44,991 bases of DNA from Clostridia bacterium (GTDB taxonomy: Bacteria > Bacillota > Clostridia > Christensenellales > Aristaeellaceae), in contig JAKSQH010000008.1 in NCBI GenBank assembly GCA_024404245.1, forward strand, positions 1-44,991, given 5' to 3'. Both the position numbers and the translations under genes were made by a program. The notes beneath the pieces were generated by a model, which was given only the letters and a program-made list of their open reading frames with translations, had not been told where the DNA came from and did not search any database. This document shows, piece by piece, positions 1,986-11,447 of the stretch; within the stretch, counting starts at the first letter, position 1; every line of letters begins with the position of its first letter.

Positions 1986-3692
1986 TTACGTGTCAATGTT
2001 TCCAAGCCACAGGGCGGATTTGCGGTTCAGCCTTCTTTCGGTCAACGCAGCGCCGCCCCAGGCGATCAGTACCAGCCCCGCCGCGATCAGCGTCGCGAAA
2101 AGCACGGGATTCTCCGGCAGGCTGAGGACCACCAGAAAAGGCATTGCCAGGAAGAGAATCATTGCCAGAAGAATACACACAAACCAGATAATCATTCCAC
2201 GTGAGTTGGACTTGGCTATGGAGGCTTCGCTTTCCCAGTGTAGATTGGGCTTCTTCAGATCATGGGCAGCTTCCAGATTCACCAGGATCACCACCAGCGC
2301 GGCTGTCAGCAGGATGCAGAGCAGCGCGCACAGTGGGGTGACCGTGCCGGTTGCGCAAAGCACGACGGCAGCCGGAATCTCATATCCCACACTGCCGATT
2401 CCGGCAATCGTCAGCACAGCGTTCCGCTTTCCGAACACCTGCAGACGATAGGACACCGGCACCATTTTTAAGTAATAGAAACTCGCGCCTTCGCGGGAAA
2501 TCAGCGTTCCGGCCAGACAACTGAGACCCACGGTGCTGCACGCGGCCATCAGCGCGACCGCGATACTGCCTGCGAGCGTCATCAGACTGCGGATCATCTC
2601 CGCCTGTTCGGCTGAATCGCCTGTCGGCAGCTCAAACGGCAGCCCGTCCTTCAGGAAGAAAGTCGCCAGCAGGACCACTGGCCAGGCCAGCGCCAGCAGC
2701 CAACCGTTGGTCATGTACGCGGGATTACGGAAAACCAGCCGCAGATCGCGTCGCGTATAAGCACTCAGTATACCGCGCTGCCTGCAAGCGCGGTCCATCG
2801 CGTCGGTACCGAGGCTCCTTCGCTTGGAACTTGAATCCTGCATATTCAACGCGGCCCGCAGGTACAGCCGGTCGCTCACAAACAGATACAGCGCCGCGAT
2901 TGCCGCGGTTATTGCCAATACAATCAGCAGGTTCAGCACTACGTCTTTCCCTGCCATCATCTTTGTTACAAACGGAATTACCGGGATCGCGACCGCGGGT
3001 CCGCTGAGCGCGCTTACCACCGCGCCGGCGGTTTCCTTGACTGTTTCGGCGTTCAGCGCCGTATTCGATTTGTTGATGAACAGGTAGCCGATCAACGCCG
3101 CGAAGCCCAGTAACGCGCCGATTACGGCCATCATTTCACGGTTCCGCGCGATGCGGAACACAGTCATAATCAGAATTGCCAGTATGCCCGCCAGCGCGAC
3201 TGCCGCTACAGTCGTCGCAAGATCACCGGCAATCAGCCCGATCCAGTATCCGGCGGGCTGTGTTCCGCCGCTGCCGACCGCGAATCCGACGCCGAAGGGG
3301 AGAATGATCAACGATGACAGAATGACCATCGTCTTCAGTGTATTCAGCGTTCTGGCGAATACGATCTGGCGCGGTGAAAACGGAAGACTCATCAGATAAG
3401 GCAGATCCGAGGAAAGGAACATGTTGCTTATCAGGTCCATCAGTGACATCAACAGCAGCATAAAGGCCACGATCAGGAACAGAGTCGCCATAAACGGTTC
3501 AACCCCGCCGAACAGCAGGGATAACGGGCCGAAGAAACGCCCGACAAAGAACAGCACCACCGGAAGGATCAATCCGCCTGCCACATAAAGCAGCAGCGAG
3601 TTATCGCCCTTCAGATCCGCCTGCCGGTCCTGCTTTTCATTTCCTTTTCCGCATTTTCTGAGAACACGGGCCAGAAGAAGAAATCGTTTCAT
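1986..3692 (-). CDS. ABC-2-type exporter permease
   Basis: A 568-residue membrane protein with two sets of about six hydrophobic segments. The first set lies around residues 30-260, with an amphipathic loop SDLPYLMSLPFSPRQIVFART typical of large Gram-positive ABC-2 exporters. The second lies around residues 330-550. A cytoplasmic stretch (about 290-320) carries charged residues and TRRDLRLVFRNPAYMTNGWLL, another feature of this class. It starts five bases after the ATPase gene ends, with a GAAGAGA site. It should form the membrane part of an exporter with that ATPase. The cargo cannot be told from sequence; peptides, lipids or drugs are usual for the class. Confidence 0.85.
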   Translation of the reverse strand: MKRFLLLARVLRKCGKGNEKQDRQADLKGDNSLLLYVAGGLILPVVLFFVGRFFGPLSLLFGGVEPFMATLFLIVAFMLLLMSLMDLISNMFLSSDLPYLMSLPFSPRQIVFARTLNTLKTMVILSSLIILPFGVGFAVGSGGTQPAGYWIGLIAGDLATTVAAVALAGILAILIMTVFRIARNREMMAVIGALLGFAALIGYLFINKSNTALNAETVKETAGAVVSALSGPAVAIPVIPFVTKMMAGKDVVLNLLIVLAITAAIAALYLFVSDRLYLRAALNMQDSSSKRRSLGTDAMDRACRQRGILSAYTRRDLRLVFRNPAYMTNGWLLALAWPVVLLATFFLKDGLPFELPTGDSAEQAEMIRSLMTLAGSIAVALMAACSTVGLSCLAGTLISREGASFYYLKMVPVSYRLQVFGKRNAVLTIAGIGSVGYEIPAAVVLCATGTVTPLCALLCILLTAALVVILVNLEAAHDLKKPNLHWESEASIAKSNSRGMIIWFVCILLAMILFLAMPFLVVLSLPENPVLFATLIAAGLVLIAWGGAALTERRLNRKSALWLGNIDT

Positions 3693-3697
3693 TCTCT

Positions 3698-4450
3698 TCA
3701 GGCCTCCGTTCCGGTTTCGACGGACGCCTGCTTTTCACCGGTCAGATGAAGGAAGATATCTTCCAGAGATGTCCCTTCCGGATATCCGCTCCTCAACTCA
3801 TCCAGCGTGCCGGTGAACCTGATTTCACCCTGCCGGATTACAGCGATGCGGTCGCACAGCTTCTCCGCCACCTCCAGCACATGGGTTGAAAACAGCACAC
3901 TGTTTCCGGCATCCGCATGCTCGCGCATCATCTTTTTCAGCTCGAAAGCACTCTGCGGGTCCAGCCCGAGCAACGGCTCATCCAGAATCCAGATCGGCGG
4001 CTTGTGGATCAGCGCGCCCATGACCATGATCTTTTGCCGCATACCGTGACTGTAGGACAGAATTTTGCTGTTCAGCGCGTCCGCGATGCCGAAACGGTCC
4101 GCGTATTCTTCAATGAATTCCCGCCGTCCCTCAGACGGCATGCCATAGATATCCGCCATAAAGTTAAGATATTCAACGCCTTTCAGCCGCAGAAAATGAT
4201 CGGGTGAGTCACTGACATAGCCGAAGGTTTCCTTGGCTTTCAGCGGCTCCTTCGTAATATCGAACCCGTTCAGTTTTACTGTTCCGGCGGTTGGACGCAA
4301 CACGCCCGTGATCATCTTCAGGTGGGTGGTCTTGCCTGCTCCGTTAGGCCCGATAAAGCCCATGATCGCGCCGTCAGGCACTTCCCATGTGCAGTCATTG
4401 ACTACTTTGCGGTCCCCGTAGGTCTTTGTCAGGTGTGAAATCTCGATCAT
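3698..4450 (-). CDS. ABC transporter ATP-binding protein
   Basis: A 250-residue ABC ATPase with Walker A GPNGAGKTT (residues 34-42), a divergent signature LSYSHGMRQK (131-140) in place of LSGGQ, and Walker B WILDEP (154-159) followed by an H-loop in FSTHV. The divergent signature and the 30-residue C-terminal extension are usual in exporters with ABC-2 permeases (DrrA/YtrB-like). The start has GGAGG nine bases upstream. It lies between the small membrane protein gene (43 bases upstream) and the permease (5 bases downstream), so the three are probably one operon read from the promoter at 4908-4937. Confidence 0.92.
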   Translation of the reverse strand: MIEISHLTKTYGDRKVVNDCTWEVPDGAIMGFIGPNGAGKTTHLKMITGVLRPTAGTVKLNGFDITKEPLKAKETFGYVSDSPDHFLRLKGVEYLNFMADIYGMPSEGRREFIEEYADRFGIADALNSKILSYSHGMRQKIMVMGALIHKPPIWILDEPLLGLDPQSAFELKKMMREHADAGNSVLFSTHVLEVAEKLCDRIAVIRQGEIRFTGTLDELRSGYPEGTSLEDIFLHLTGEKQASVETGTEA

Positions 4451-5001: not shown

Positions 5002-5261
5002 GTCAGATCCGGCTAAGGCCGGAAAGCGGAGGTGCTTTTTGGAATCGGTTGCGTAAAGGACAGGAACTGATAAGGAATGCCGCGGTGGCATGGCCGCGTG
5101 TTTGCTTTACCGTTCTTTGGGCGCAAGCTGTTCCGGGGAAGGCCTCTTTTTCTATACCTAAAATCCGTTCATCCCGACAAGCCCGGCCTGACTGTCCGTT
5201 TTCTCACACATGCGAAACAGACCTTATGTAAACCGAAAAACAGACGAGGAGAGAAAACAAC
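5002..5261 (+). promoter_or_regulatory. Long 5-prime leader of unknown role
   Basis: About 260 bases between the predicted transcript start and the ATG. It holds a CCGGC/GCCGG hairpin (5009-5022), a GGAGG followed by TTG and a five-codon mini-frame ending in TAA (5038-5055), and a small hairpin ATGCC-GCGGT-GGCAT (5077-5091). I looked for a T-box or another known riboswitch and did not find one. There is no clear terminator, although a T-run (5157-5161 region, CTCTTTTTCT) follows GC-rich sequence. Confidence 0.3.
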
Positions 5262-7100
5262 ATGGATAACAATAAAATCAACGGGCATCAGACCATTGAG
5301 ATCCGCAGGGAGACCGAACAGGACTATTTTGCCACGGAGGCTATGGTCCGCCGTGCTTTCTGGAATAAATACCGTCCCGGCTGTGATGAGCATCTCATGG
5401 TGCGTGCCATGCGCTCACATCCGGATTTTCTGCCGGAATTCAGCCGTGTTGCCGTCTGCGGGGACAGGATCGTCGGCCTTATCAACTACTTCAAATGCAA
5501 GGTTCTGTATGAGGGAAAAGAAATCACTGTTCCTTCCTTCGGTCCGCTGTGTGCCGATCACGCCTATAAAAACCGGGGCATCGGCCGCCGTTTGATTACG
5601 GAGACACTGCCCCTGCTGAAGGCTGCCGGTTATCCCGGTGTGATCATCTTCGGTGAACCGGACTATTATCCGAAACTCGGTTTTGTCCGCGCCGGCTCGC
5701 TCGGACTGACGGATATGGAAGGCAATGCCTGGGACGCTTTTCTCGCGTATGAGTTTGAGCCCGGTTCCCTGCGGATGCCCGGCGGCAAGTTTGTGGAATC
5801 CACCCTGTGCGAGGCTTTCCCGCATGAGGAACCTAACCCGTCGGAACCCGACCGCCCCTTTGAGAAACTGCCCGTGGCCGTGCGCCCCTGCCAGTGGACC
5901 TATGATAACGCTACTGAAGAAAAGAACGGATACCGCCTGATGTACGCGGTGGAAAATCCCCGTGCTTTTGATTTTCTGTTCGCACGCTACATTGACGAGC
6001 TTTCCCGTTATGACGAAAGCCTTACACGGCACAATCCCGCTGCTATGGTCCGGGAGCTGCGCGCGGATCCGAATAAGGCCACTTACATCATCGTGAAGCA
6101 CGGCGCGCCTGTCGGGCTTCTCGTTACTTCTGTCCCCGGCTCCGGGGATGAAGCGGATGACTGTACCGCCTATCTGGAAGAAATCTGGATTCTTCCGGAA
6201 AACCGCGGTCAGGGCATCGCGAAGGATATCTTCCTCCGCTTCCTGCGCCAGCAGAGCGGAGATACCGGCTTCTGTGTCATTCCGTCAAATCCCGCGGCGG
6301 AAATGTGGCGCGGCCTGCTGAAAAAGGAAAGTTATTCCTTTACCGAGAACCGCTCTGATGAAGGGCTGATCTTCTTCCGTGTTTTACCGCGCACACTTTC
6401 GGATAAGTATGGCCGTTTCTTTACCGCGAATTATATGATGGGTCCCAACGCGCTGCTTCTGCTGGACGCGCTGGTGAAACAGGATCCCGCGGCGGTGCAC
6501 GGCAATGTGATGGACCTGGGCTGCGGTGAGGGTCTGACCACCGTGTATCTGGCTAAAGAAACCGCTGCCGAAAAGGTTTATGCCGTAGATCTGTGGATAC
6601 CGGCCACGGAGAATATGAAGCGTTTCCGTGAAAACGGCATCGCCGATAAGGCTGTTCCGATTCACGCGGACGCTCTGGACCGGACATTCCCGGATGATTT
6701 CTTTGATGCTCTCGTCAGTATCGACGCCTATCACTACTTCGGTACCGCGGACGGTGTCTTCGGTGAAAAGACGCTGCCTCTGGTCAGACAGGGCGGCACG
6801 GTTCTGCTGGCTGTGCCCGGCCTCGCGCGTGAAATGACGCAGGAGGAAAACGCACTCATGACCGAGTGGGCGGATGACGAAGCATATATGTTCAGGACCG
6901 CGGAATGGTGGCAGGCTCATCTTGAAAAAGAAAGCGCCGGTAAAGCTTCGGTTTCTGTTGTTACCGTTCCGGATCCCGAACCCTTCTGGAAGGACTGGTA
7001 CTCAACCGGCCACGAGTATGCTCTCCGTGATCGCGAATTCCTTGAGAGGGGACTGGGCAGGGTTATCACCTTCATCCTCATGACCGTGAAAAAGAATTGA
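5262..7100 (+). CDS. Three-domain fusion: GNAT acetyltransferase, second GNAT, SAM-dependent methyltransferase
   Basis: A 612-residue soluble protein in three parts. Residues 10-165 form a GNAT acetyltransferase with the acetyl-CoA loop NRGIGR (104-109) and the YYPKLGF segment typical of YhbS-like members. Residues 225-375 form a second GNAT with ENRGQGIAK (313-321). Residues 380-610 form a class I methyltransferase with motif I DLGCGEG (418-424), the acidic residue of strand 2 in AVDLW (441-445) and a YMMGPN opening that resembles stand-alone small-molecule methyltransferases of Clostridia. GAGGAGAG precedes the ATG. The substrate is unknown. Successive acetylation and methylation of one small molecule, for example in drug modification, is an inference. 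It is divergent from an ABC exporter and shares a possible operator with it. Confidence 0.9.
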   Translation: MDNNKINGHQTIEIRRETEQDYFATEAMVRRAFWNKYRPGCDEHLMVRAMRSHPDFLPEFSRVAVCGDRIVGLINYFKCKVLYEGKEITVPSFGPLCADHAYKNRGIGRRLITETLPLLKAAGYPGVIIFGEPDYYPKLGFVRAGSLGLTDMEGNAWDAFLAYEFEPGSLRMPGGKFVESTLCEAFPHEEPNPSEPDRPFEKLPVAVRPCQWTYDNATEEKNGYRLMYAVENPRAFDFLFARYIDELSRYDESLTRHNPAAMVRELRADPNKATYIIVKHGAPVGLLVTSVPGSGDEADDCTAYLEEIWILPENRGQGIAKDIFLRFLRQQSGDTGFCVIPSNPAAEMWRGLLKKESYSFTENRSDEGLIFFRVLPRTLSDKYGRFFTANYMMGPNALLLLDALVKQDPAAVHGNVMDLGCGEGLTTVYLAKETAAEKVYAVDLWIPATENMKRFRENGIADKAVPIHADALDRTFPDDFFDALVSIDAYHYFGTADGVFGEKTLPLVRQGGTVLLAVPGLAREMTQEENALMTEWADDEAYMFRTAEWWQAHLEKESAGKASVSVVTVPDPEPFWKDWYSTGHEYALRDREFLERGLGRVITFILMTVKKN

Positions 7101-7193: not shown

Positions 7194-7757
7194 ATGGACG
7201 GGGCCCGGAAACCGTACCGTACGGGAGTACTGACCGGAAGGTTTCAGATGATCCATCTCGGTCACATTGAGATGATCGAAAAAGCCCGGGAGATTTGCGA
7301 AAAGATTATTATTCTGGTCGGATCCTCACAGGAGGCGGGCACGGAGAAAAACCCGTTTTCCTATGAAGAACGCAGGGATATGCTGAAAGCCGTATTCCCG
7401 GATGATAATATCAGCGTTTTCCCGCTTCCGGACGCGGGATTCGGCAATCACATACTGTGGGGAGAGTATATTCTGAACAGGGTAAAGGAATACACGGGTA
7501 CATTGCCGGACCTGATGATCACCGGAAGGGAAGAACGGAGGGAAGGCTGGTTTTCAGGGCCGAACGGCATGAATGTGGCCGAACTGGCCGTGCCGAAATC
7601 CGTACCGCTGTCCGCCACGCAGATGCGCGAATGGCTGATTCAAGGCGAAAAGGAGAAATGGAGTGAAGCCACGGCTCCCGCGCTGCGGGAACGGTATTCC
7701 GCACTGCGTGAAACCGTGCTCGCGTCCGTCGGAAAAAAAGAAACGGACAGTATCTGA
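7194..7757 (+). CDS. Nicotinamide-nucleotide adenylyltransferase-like nucleotidyltransferase
   Basis: A 187-residue HIGH-superfamily nucleotidyltransferase. GRFQMIHLGH (residues 15-24) carries the nucleotide-binding HxGH motif; the NadM/NadR consensus has PFH where this has MIH. SYEERRDML (about 57-65) and SATQMR (141-146, equal to the ISSTKIR motif) complete the active site. The family transfers AMP from ATP to NMN or a related phosphate. NadM-like proteins are often fused to a Nudix domain; here the protein ends after the core with a short helical tail. AAAGGAGGTG precedes the ATG. It follows the fusion gene by 93 bases without a terminator, so it may be co-transcribed. NMN as substrate is likely but not proven. 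Confidence 0.8.
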   Translation: MDGARKPYRTGVLTGRFQMIHLGHIEMIEKAREICEKIIILVGSSQEAGTEKNPFSYEERRDMLKAVFPDDNISVFPLPDAGFGNHILWGEYILNRVKEYTGTLPDLMITGREERREGWFSGPNGMNVAELAVPKSVPLSATQMREWLIQGEKEKWSEATAPALRERYSALRETVLASVGKKETDSI

Positions 7758-9690: not shown

Positions 9691-9798
9691 CGGCCAGCGC
9701 GCTGCCGGAACGCAGAATATCTGATAATGAATAACGGTTCCGCGGCATCGGTAATCAGGAACGGTGCCGTGAAGCTGACAGGTGTAAGGGGGAACGGT

Positions 9799-10443
9799 AT
9801 GGAAAAGACTGAATTGATGAAAACAATTTCCGAGCAGCTGCAGAAAGGCAAGGCGAAGGATGTCAAAGCGCTTGTGAACGAAGCGATTGAAGCGGGTGTT
9901 CCGGCGGGCGAAATTCTTTCCGAGGGACTGCTGGCCGGGATGAGCGCGGTCGGTGACCGTTTCCGCGCGAATGAGATTTTTGTGCCGGAGGTGCTGGTAG
10001 CCGCGCGCGCGATGAACCAGGGCGCCGCGTTGCTGAAGCCGCTGCTGGCGGGTGAAGGCGTTCAGGCCGGCGGGAAAGTGTGCATCGGCACCGTACAGGG
10101 TGATTTGCATGATATCGGTAAGAATCTGTGCAAAATGATGATGGAGGGCAAAGGACTCGAGGTTGTTGATCTGGGTACGGATGTTGCTCCGGAAACCTTT
10201 GTACGCACGGCGAAGGAGCAGGAGTGCAGCGTGATCTGCTGTTCCGCGCTGCTGACAACAACCATGGAGAAGATGCGCGAGATTGTGGAAGAAGCGGAAA
10301 AAGCCGGAATCCGCGATAAAGTGAAGATTATGATCGGCGGCGCTCCCGTAACGCAGGAATACTGTGACCGGATCGGTGCGGACGCCTATACGCCTGACGC
10401 GGCAAGCGCGGCTGAACAGGCGGCAATATTCTGCAAAGGGTGA
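9799..10443 (+). CDS. Corrinoid protein of a methyltransferase system (MtbC/MtaC type)
   Basis: A 214-residue cobalamin-binding protein. The first 85 residues form the helical cap domain (MtaC/MetH-like, with VGDRFRANEIFVPEVLVAARAM split over 51-72). The rest is a Rossmann-like B12 domain with GDLHDIG (101-107), whose His104 coordinates cobalt, followed by VVDLGTDV and a C-terminal IGGAPVTQEYCDRIGADAY. Such proteins carry a methyl group between a substrate methyltransferase and an acceptor methyltransferase. The start at 9799 has GGGGGGA six bases upstream; a longer frame to 9727 lacks a site. The next gene overlaps by one base (TGATG), so the two are translationally coupled. Confidence 0.9.
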   Translation: MEKTELMKTISEQLQKGKAKDVKALVNEAIEAGVPAGEILSEGLLAGMSAVGDRFRANEIFVPEVLVAARAMNQGAALLKPLLAGEGVQAGGKVCIGTVQGDLHDIGKNLCKMMMEGKGLEVVDLGTDVAPETFVRTAKEQECSVICCSALLTTTMEKMREIVEEAEKAGIRDKVKIMIGGAPVTQEYCDRIGADAYTPDAASAAEQAAIFCKG

Positions 10444-11447
10444 TGTCCGTGAATATGCGTAAATGGCTGCGCGCGGCAGCCGGAACACCGGGAAACGCGT
10501 TGCCGGTTCTGTCCTTTCCGGCCGCGGCAAGGCTGAATATTCCGGTGGGGCAGCTGGTGCGCGACAGCGCGCTGATGGCTGATGTGATTGCCTGCGTTGC
10601 CGGAAATACGGAAACAGCGGCCGCGGTGAGTCTGATGGACCTGAGTGTGGAAGCGGAGGCTTTCGGGGCATCGGTACACTTTACACAGAATGATGTACCG
10701 GTGATCACCGGTCAGCTTGTCGGTGATGAGGCCGCTGCCGCGGCACTCGCCGTGCCCGCTGTCGGCAGCGGCCGTACCGGCGTGTGTGTGGACGGCATCC
10801 GGCAGGCAAAGCGGCGGATTACCGATAAGCCTTTGCTTGCCGGGATGATCGGACCGTATTCATTGACCGGCAGGCTGATGGATGTAACGGAGATCATGTA
10901 TCTGTGTTATGATGAACCGGATACGGTGCACACCGTTCTGCGCAAGACAACGGATTTTCTGATTGCTTACGCGCGAGCGTTCCGGGAAGCGGGCGCGGAC
11001 GGAATTATTATCGCGGAGCCGCTCGCGGGTCTGCTCGGCCGCGATATGTGTGAGGAATTCTCGAACCCGTATGTGAAAGAGATCATTGATGCCGTGCAGA
11101 CGGACGATTTCGCGGTGATCTACCATAACTGCGGGAATACCGTGATTCATATGATTCCGGAGCTGTACGCGCTGGGTGCGGCGGCATACCATTTCGGCAA
11201 CGCCGTGGATATGGCGCGTGTGCTCTCGGCGGCACCGGCGGATATGCTGTGTATGGGAAATATCGATCCTGCCGGGCTGCTGGTCAACGGTACGGCGGAT
11301 CAGGTGCGCGAAACGGTGGAAAAACTGCTTGCGGAATGCGACGGGAAACCGAATTTCCTGCTTTCTACCGGATGCGATGTTCCTCCGAACGCGAAATGGG
11401 AGAACATCATCGCATTCTTTGACGCGGCACATCACGGCAGACAGTGA
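10443..11447 (+). CDS. UroD-fold methylcobamide-dependent methyltransferase (MtbA/MtaA-like)
   Basis: A 334-residue protein of the uroporphyrinogen decarboxylase/cobamide methyltransferase superfamily. The zinc-site pattern of the methyltransferase branch is present: YHNC with His228 and Cys230, and STGCDVPP with Cys311. The decarboxylase substrate-binding arginines are not apparent. It should demethylate the corrinoid protein encoded just upstream and pass the methyl group to a thiol or other acceptor; in non-methanogens the acceptor may be tetrahydrofolate or another thiol. It overlaps the corrinoid gene at TGATG. No substrate-specific MtaB/MttB-type enzyme and no reductive activator gene is in the window, so the methyl donor is unknown. 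Confidence 0.88.
   Translation: MSVNMRKWLRAAAGTPGNALPVLSFPAAARLNIPVGQLVRDSALMADVIACVAGNTETAAAVSLMDLSVEAEAFGASVHFTQNDVPVITGQLVGDEAAAAALAVPAVGSGRTGVCVDGIRQAKRRITDKPLLAGMIGPYSLTGRLMDVTEIMYLCYDEPDTVHTVLRKTTDFLIAYARAFREAGADGIIIAEPLAGLLGRDMCEEFSNPYVKEIIDAVQTDDFAVIYHNCGNTVIHMIPELYALGAAAYHFGNAVDMARVLSAAPADMLCMGNIDPAGLLVNGTADQVRETVEKLLAECDGKPNFLLSTGCDVPPNAKWENIIAFFDAAHHGRQ

Follow-up and report, generated by a model that had tools for sequence, protein, structure and literature searches.

A predicted GNAT-GNAT-methyltransferase fusion in Clostridia, rare and conserved, joins enzymes that relatives encode apart

In the window, as the whole stretch of 44,991 nucleotides analysed here is called, one gene appears to join two GNAT acetyltransferases to a SAM-dependent methyltransferase (MT). 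This raises the questions of whether such a three-part protein is real and what would bring its activities together. ORF 5262-7100 (plus strand) reads as a single frame from ATG to TGA, encoding 612 aa. The stop-free frame around it spans 622 codons, and the longest such run in 60 mononucleotide shuffles of the window was 367. The preliminary description of this locus, made from the letters alone, had proposed one continuous chain of two GNATs and an MT. The frame, the Pfam matches and the motif positions all bear this out, and the residue numbers it gave for NRGIGR (104), ENRGQGIAK (313) and DLGCGEG (418) are exact. The parts of the gene are as follows.

5246..5251, plus strand: possible ribosome binding site GAGGAG, 10 nt before the ATG of the three-part gene, read from the sequence
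5262..7100, plus strand: three-part gene GNAT-GNAT-methyltransferase, 612 aa, one open frame; the fusion in genome G304 (locus L047) is 65% identical
5295..5861, plus strand: N-terminal YhbS-type GNAT, residues ~12-200; Pfam Acetyltransf_7/_9; PDB relatives 4rs2 and 4zbg
5568..5588, plus strand: GNAT 1 acetyl-CoA loop, K103 and NRGIGR; K103, N104, G106, I107 and G108 invariant in a three-sequence alignment
5877..6389, plus strand: second GNAT, residues ~206-376; Pfam Acetyltransf_1; profile weakly matches thialysine/diamine acetyltransferases
6198..6224, plus strand: GNAT 2 acetyl-CoA loop ENRGQGIAK; R315, G318 and I319 invariant in five aligned second domains
6390..7097, plus strand: class I SAM methyltransferase, residues 377-612; Pfam Methyltransf_25/_11; family alignment of 15 sequences
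6513..6533, plus strand: SAM-binding motif DLGCGEG, residues 418-424; D418, L419, G420 and G422 invariant in 15 sequences

Each domain combines a profile match above the curated cut-off with the motif expected of its class, an acetyl-CoA loop in both GNATs and a glycine-rich motif I in the class I MT. GNAT 1 matches Acetyltransf_7 (residues 63-142, 5.1e-9, 36.8 bits, cut-off 27) and Acetyltransf_9 (13-141, 9.9e-8, 32.5 bits, cut-off 25), and GNAT 2 matches Acetyltransf_1 (257-323, 1.3e-9, 38.7 bits, cut-off 20.7). The MT matches Methyltransf_25 (416-497, 2.6e-10, 41.3 bits, cut-off 27) and Methyltransf_11 (418-502, 1.4e-9, 38.9 bits, cut-off 21.2). The GNAT 1 loop reads K-N-R-G-I-G, with a lysine where Q or R is usual, and that of GNAT 2 reads R-G-Q-G-I-A. 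Because the two loops and motif I are present and conserved among relatives, the protein is predicted to hold three binding sites for two cofactors.

The substrate is less easily read. The window protein stays below the cut-off of all 15 NCBIfam models listed, so no family model names a substrate. The protein falls far short of MshD (TIGR03448, 15.4 bits against a cut-off of 163.1) and of aminoglycoside 6'-N-acetyltransferase (NF043067, 17.5 bits against 140), the latter being the sole aminoglycoside model in the NCBIfam list (E up to 0.01). Compared with solved structures, the GNAT 2 profile weakly matches thialysine, diamine and putative streptothricin acetyltransferases and AAC(6') (E 8e-5 to 1.5e-3). 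The MT profile, also weakly, matches MitM, 3bus, glucose O-methyltransferase, phosphoethanolamine methyltransferases and arginine methyltransferases. Relatives of these kinds suggest that the modified group is an amine or a hydroxyl, carried by a small molecule or a side chain. A role as a defence system was considered and set aside, as the PADLOC match to Mad2 (MADS) is partial (model positions 239-399 of 492, residues 353-521 in the MT region, 48.3 bits).

Several known systems resemble the chain in part. Like the tandem GNAT enzymes MshD and Eis, it holds two GNAT folds, but it carries an MT in addition; Eis has an SCP2-type domain, and none was found in the Pfam scan of the window protein. 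Polyketide synthase loading modules combine GNAT and MT domains in one chain, but the same scan found no other polyketide synthase domain here. The N-terminal domain is like YhbS-type GNATs (Acetyltransf_7/_9) in profile and acetyl-CoA loop, from which the window protein differs by its second GNAT and its MT. This domain is presumably comparable with E. coli YhbS itself, a protein that is not known to have been characterised. E. coli YhbS co-purified with Hfq, in an RNA-dependent manner in exponential but not in stationary phase (PMC6773851).

A second genome carries the fusion as well. In G304, a genome of the same genus (contig JAUNQH010000001.1), the three parts lie in one frame of 604 aa with 65% identity, junction included, and with a neighbourhood that differs from the window's. 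A frameshift or assembly error, which the preliminary description had allowed for, might be suspected since the window genome (G000) is only 65% complete (both fusion genomes are at ~65%). No such error was found: the equivalent join recurs in G304, and base composition is even along the gene (GC 55.5-55.7%, GC3 63-65% across the three parts). Because a 65%-identical fusion sits in a second genome of the genus amid other neighbours, the join is not an assembly error, and the chance of an artefact is negligible. Between the two fusions, identity is 72%, 63% and 60% for GNAT 1, GNAT 2 and MT, and the NG86 estimates are dN 0.23, 0.26 and 0.31 and dS 1.4, 2.2 and 1.8. The resulting dN/dS values are 0.16, 0.12 and 0.17; with dS near saturation, these ratios say no more than that all three parts look constrained, consistent with purifying selection.

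The fusion is rare in the sets searched. The full protein has a single match in its own genome, itself, and among 300 genomes of the family (G304 not included) the full chain was found in the window's own genome only. The tandem part (E 1e-45 or better) was likewise confined to the own genome among 396 genomes of the order. A search of 45 genomes of the genus with residues 1-374 gave four matches at E 1e-30, which covered both GNATs in G000 and G304 and domain 1 only in G283 and G112. A genome_contigs scan, which detects a genome only if it contains either of two short exact patterns and could miss more divergent fusions, gave 192 pattern stretches and 144 relatives; among the best 80 of these, only the G304 contig is fully fused. 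Carriage on plasmids was set aside, as 49 plasmid records match but none over 80% of the query, and one scan of viral_contigs with the window MT as sole query gave no pattern match. The search for the same architecture that the preliminary description had called for thus yielded one further full fusion and none beyond it in the searched sets. Its statement that the parts occur as separate enzymes holds, with the tandem GNAT alone in another genus and the MT as a lone gene across the family. In that other genus of the family (G004), the tandem GNAT stands alone on contig C165 (381 aa, 57%) and the MT lies on C292 behind a MutS2-like gene. The parts are therefore indeed split in a relative, which the preliminary description would have counted against the fusion, but this marks the fusion as a derived state and does not make it false. 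Judged from these comparisons, the fusion is genuine, rare and conserved, a new combination of known enzyme kinds. Neither this architecture nor the GNAT-RsgA fusion considered below appears in the titles and abstract openings of the literature searched.

Three genes near the fusion are considered here.

1986..3692, minus strand: ABC transporter permease (ABC_tran_2, 7e-7), judged not part of the unit
3698..4450, minus strand: ABC transporter ATPase (ABC_tran), divergent, judged not part of the unit
7194..7757, plus strand: NMN adenylyltransferase-like nucleotidyltransferase (CTP_transf_like, 9.7e-15), downstream neighbour

Pairing with the ABC exporter, proposed earlier as a self-protection or detoxification unit, is not supported: the exporter lies on the opposite strand, a 126-aa gene stands between, and it has no counterpart around the G304 fusion. 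None of six neighbouring window genes, including the ATPase, the permease and the nucleotidyltransferase, has a match in the 14 kb around that fusion. As a counterpoint to rejecting the exporter, the loci L049 and L051 have ABC ATPases ~30% identical to that of the window, 4.3 kb ahead of the MT and 0.9 kb past the GNAT, respectively. Unrelated ABC ATPases often reach such identity, and these two look unrelated. At L051 (6743-10221), genes for a response regulator, an ABC ATPase and a histidine kinase follow the MT-GNAT pair, a layout that we presume to resemble drug-sensing operons. Farther along the window (9727-11447, plus strand), a corrinoid-binding protein and then an MtaA/uroporphyrinogen-decarboxylase-like methyltransferase were recognised from sequence.

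Other relatives encode the parts apart. Among the matches listed, the MT occurs as a lone gene of ~240 aa at at least 73 places in the 300 family genomes. These free-standing class I MTs share the domain of the window MT (33-51% identity) and the motifs MGP, DLG-G and D-x-Y/F-x-YF; they differ in standing alone and, in part, behind a shortened MutS2 gene, here called MutS2s. Sixty-eight of the 73 loci were examined (those of G234, G215, G246, G170 and G199 were left out). MutS2s lies upstream on the same strand at 19 of the 68, with lengths of 635-684 aa and one copy running off its contig at 517 aa. In 16 of the 19 it overlaps the MT frame or ends at most 9 bases from it, and in the other three (L142, L164, L165) a GNAT gene sits between the two. 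The 19 loci come from 19 genomes of 6 genera but are not independent, because 11 belong to the window's genus. The remaining 49 lone MT genes have no MutS2s upstream, and as a few of these contigs hold little sequence there (L187, L029), 19 is a lower bound. At 9/68 loci a GNAT is encoded on the strand of the MT and at most 210 bp from it; GNATs are common and this count has no background rate, so taken alone it is weak. Three of the nine (L132, L155, L188) carry another GNAT type of 480-500 aa. A GNAT-matching protein of another type, 457-496 aa, also precedes the lone MT, by -1 to 3102 bases, at L132, L155, L188, L154 and L136. A link of the MT to rsgA was rejected, as rsgA is directly upstream at 3/68 loci only (L032, L143, L171).

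The fused MT might be the genus's own MutS2s-linked MT moved elsewhere. We set this aside because, in trees of 73 and of 32 MTs, the two fused MTs fall outside the MutS2s-linked MT clade of the genus, but the topology test does not reject it: in the 32-row set, forcing the fused MTs together with 12 MutS2s-linked rows was 10.3 log units worse (AU p 0.09). Forcing them together with the MT of L051 was 0.37 log units worse (p 0.38). Both constrained groups were named after the first tree had been seen, and long branches are involved.

In a quick tree built from the N-terminal GNAT domains of the window and the 80 loci (81 in all), the window groups with L047, L048, L049, L050, L051 and L053 (SH-aLRT 99), where the genes are arranged as follows.

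Window and L047: GNAT-GNAT fused to MT
L049: MutS2s-MT-GNAT-GNAT in a row
L051: MT first, GNAT with a shortened second domain 17 bases on
L050 and L053: MutS2s immediately before GNAT; L053 contains a stretch of N
L048: GNAT apart from MT and MutS2s, on a contig of 3.2 kb

All seven genomes of this clade hold MutS2s, and a MutS2 of ~800 aa was also seen in five. The genome of L052, a tandem GNAT outside the clade that lies ~280 bases behind an RsgA gene, gave no match to MutS2s (E 1e-40) or to the MT (E 1e-20).

MutS2s is a neighbour gene in relatives and not part of the window protein. It consists of an ATPase core and a KOW-like region and lacks an SMR domain. Five copies pass the cut-off of the model for MutS2, the ribosome-splitting ATPase (TIGR01069, 524-564 bits, cut-off 400), but their matches end at model positions 510-518 of 790, and a Pfam scan of them found MutS_V and no Smr. 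Walker A (GPNTGGKT), a KOW-like stretch and a conserved tail in place of SMR are present in 7/7 short copies. The KOW-like region aligns moderately with its counterpart in long MutS2 (hhalign probability 60%, E 8.5e-5), the long set being six copies of which one, L198, is itself a shortened frame. The window genome carries such an SMR-less paralogue (G000:C8:27253-29151), as do relatives, with the long MutS2 elsewhere in the genome. B. subtilis MutS2 is described as recruited by its SMR and KOW domains to split stalled ribosomes, with KOW binding uS10, and its authors consider that this contact may suffice for partial activity without SMR (PMC10897456). By analogy, MutS2s may bind ribosomes.

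The association of MutS2s with the MT is not uniform. MT follows MutS2s in G066, G091 and G004. In G000 and G304, MutS2s shares 76% identity with the G066 copy; no MT follows it, it is not adjacent to the fusion, and a convergent methionyl-tRNA synthetase-like gene (recognised from sequence) comes after it. Across the class, 391 genomes were searched for MutS2s, giving 18 matches including the own one. Downstream of MutS2s, considering the longest frames that start no more than 900 bases away, an MT or GNAT was found in 0/17 genomes of other families, two of these loci having no frame of 70 aa or more there. MutS2s thus does not need an MT or GNAT, and its pairing with them is lineage-specific.

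A parallel case involves RsgA, a ribosome-assembly GTPase. The 80 loci are the best 80 of the 144 relatives by match to the window and not a census; at 41 of them, a YhbS-type GNAT shares one frame with a long RsgA match. The others comprise four in which the RsgA-like part is short, one whose RsgA is split between two frames (L110), 12 with a second GNAT in front, one with another GNAT in front (L105), 14 with none of these partners and the seven loci L047-L053. All 8 RsgA-fusion genomes tested carry another RsgA match besides, on a frame of 296-344 aa; in two of these genomes a stop falls within the match. The RsgA joined to the GNAT is therefore an additional copy; G000 and G304 have one RsgA match each. 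The 41 include L057, L063, L066-L068 and L070-L072, with GNAT-RsgA chains of ~530 aa, and the fusions occur mostly in records titled Lachnospiraceae, Butyrivibrio or Eubacterium. Because they sit in another GNAT subgroup, they bear on the window by analogy only.

We tentatively favour a fusion between a tandem-GNAT gene and a free-standing MT gene, giving a multifunctional modifying enzyme whose activities are joined on one substrate or pathway, perhaps linked to translation; we place this reading a little short of an even chance. One or both GNATs would acetylate and the MT would methylate one substrate or within one short pathway, and the fusion would fix a pairing that some other lineages keep as adjoining genes. 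Less firmly, the substrate might be tied to translation: a protein or RNA associated with the ribosome, or a small amine-bearing molecule that interferes with translation. MutS2s would then work at the ribosome. The best-supported statement, and a probable one, is that the acetylating and methylating activities work in concert; several modifications of one molecule, as the preliminary description suggested, are plausible because GNAT and MT genes also adjoin in other lineages. The reading is favoured by the retention of the fusion in G304 amid other neighbours, by low dN/dS in all parts, and by MT and GNAT parts that are separate or adjoining in relatives, several times beside MutS2s. The MutS2s genes in all seven genomes of the GNAT clade, the Walker A motif and KOW-like region that MutS2s keeps, and the GNAT-RsgA fusions count on the same side. 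Against it stand the 17/17 MutS2s genes of other families without MT or GNAT, the 49/68 lone MTs without MutS2s upstream, the distance of MutS2s from the fusion in G000 and G304, the different subgroup of the RsgA-fused GNATs, and the solved relatives of MT and GNAT 2, largely small-molecule enzymes and all weak matches. The adjacency counts for GNAT, MT and MutS2s stand without a background rate, and the link to paralogues of ribosome-acting NTPases is a lead that has evidence both for and against it.

Those solved relatives, from the thialysine, diamine and putative streptothricin acetyltransferases and AAC(6') of GNAT 2 to MitM, 3bus and glucose O-methyltransferase for the MT, fit an enzyme that works alone in detoxification or biosynthesis, on a small molecule bearing an amine (antibiotic, polyamine or amino-acid analogue), the MutS2s neighbourhood being incidental. 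The position of MutS2s elsewhere in both fusion genomes and the ABC ATPases near L049 and L051 agree with this, but the parts adjoin MutS2s in several genera and no window neighbour recurs around the second fusion; we consider it a reasonable possibility that we doubt rather more than we credit. A read-through fusion of adjoining, functionally unrelated genes, kept by drift, would suit the clean junction, which has no long linker, and the occurrence of the fusion in just two species of a single genus. Such an origin is improbable, given 65% identity across the whole chain, low dN/dS in every part, and GNAT-MT adjacency in other lineages, also with the MT first (L049, L051). A broader extension of the favoured multifunctional enzyme is that Clostridia built a translation-stress module more than once, from a duplicated ribosome-acting NTPase (SMR-less MutS2 or second RsgA) and a YhbS-type GNAT, sometimes with an MT. 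The window protein would then be the modifying half in one chain. It would act on a ribosome component, or inactivate a small molecule aimed at the ribosome, and the NTPase would meanwhile clear the ribosome. We think this unlikely.

The fusion ties together enzyme activities that relatives encode apart. It also points towards acetylation and methylation as a recurring pair, close to paralogues of NTPases for ribosome rescue and ribosome assembly. If that link is true, a testable role would open up for many clostridial GNATs and methyltransferases that lack an assignment, and the fused protein could be purified as a single chain to screen for both reactions. Other GNAT pairings also occur among the 80 loci. 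At the 12 where a further GNAT precedes the YhbS-type GNAT within one frame (L054-L056, L058, L060, L062, L069, L079, L089, L119, L120 and L123), the front domain presumably resembles streptothricin acetyltransferase.
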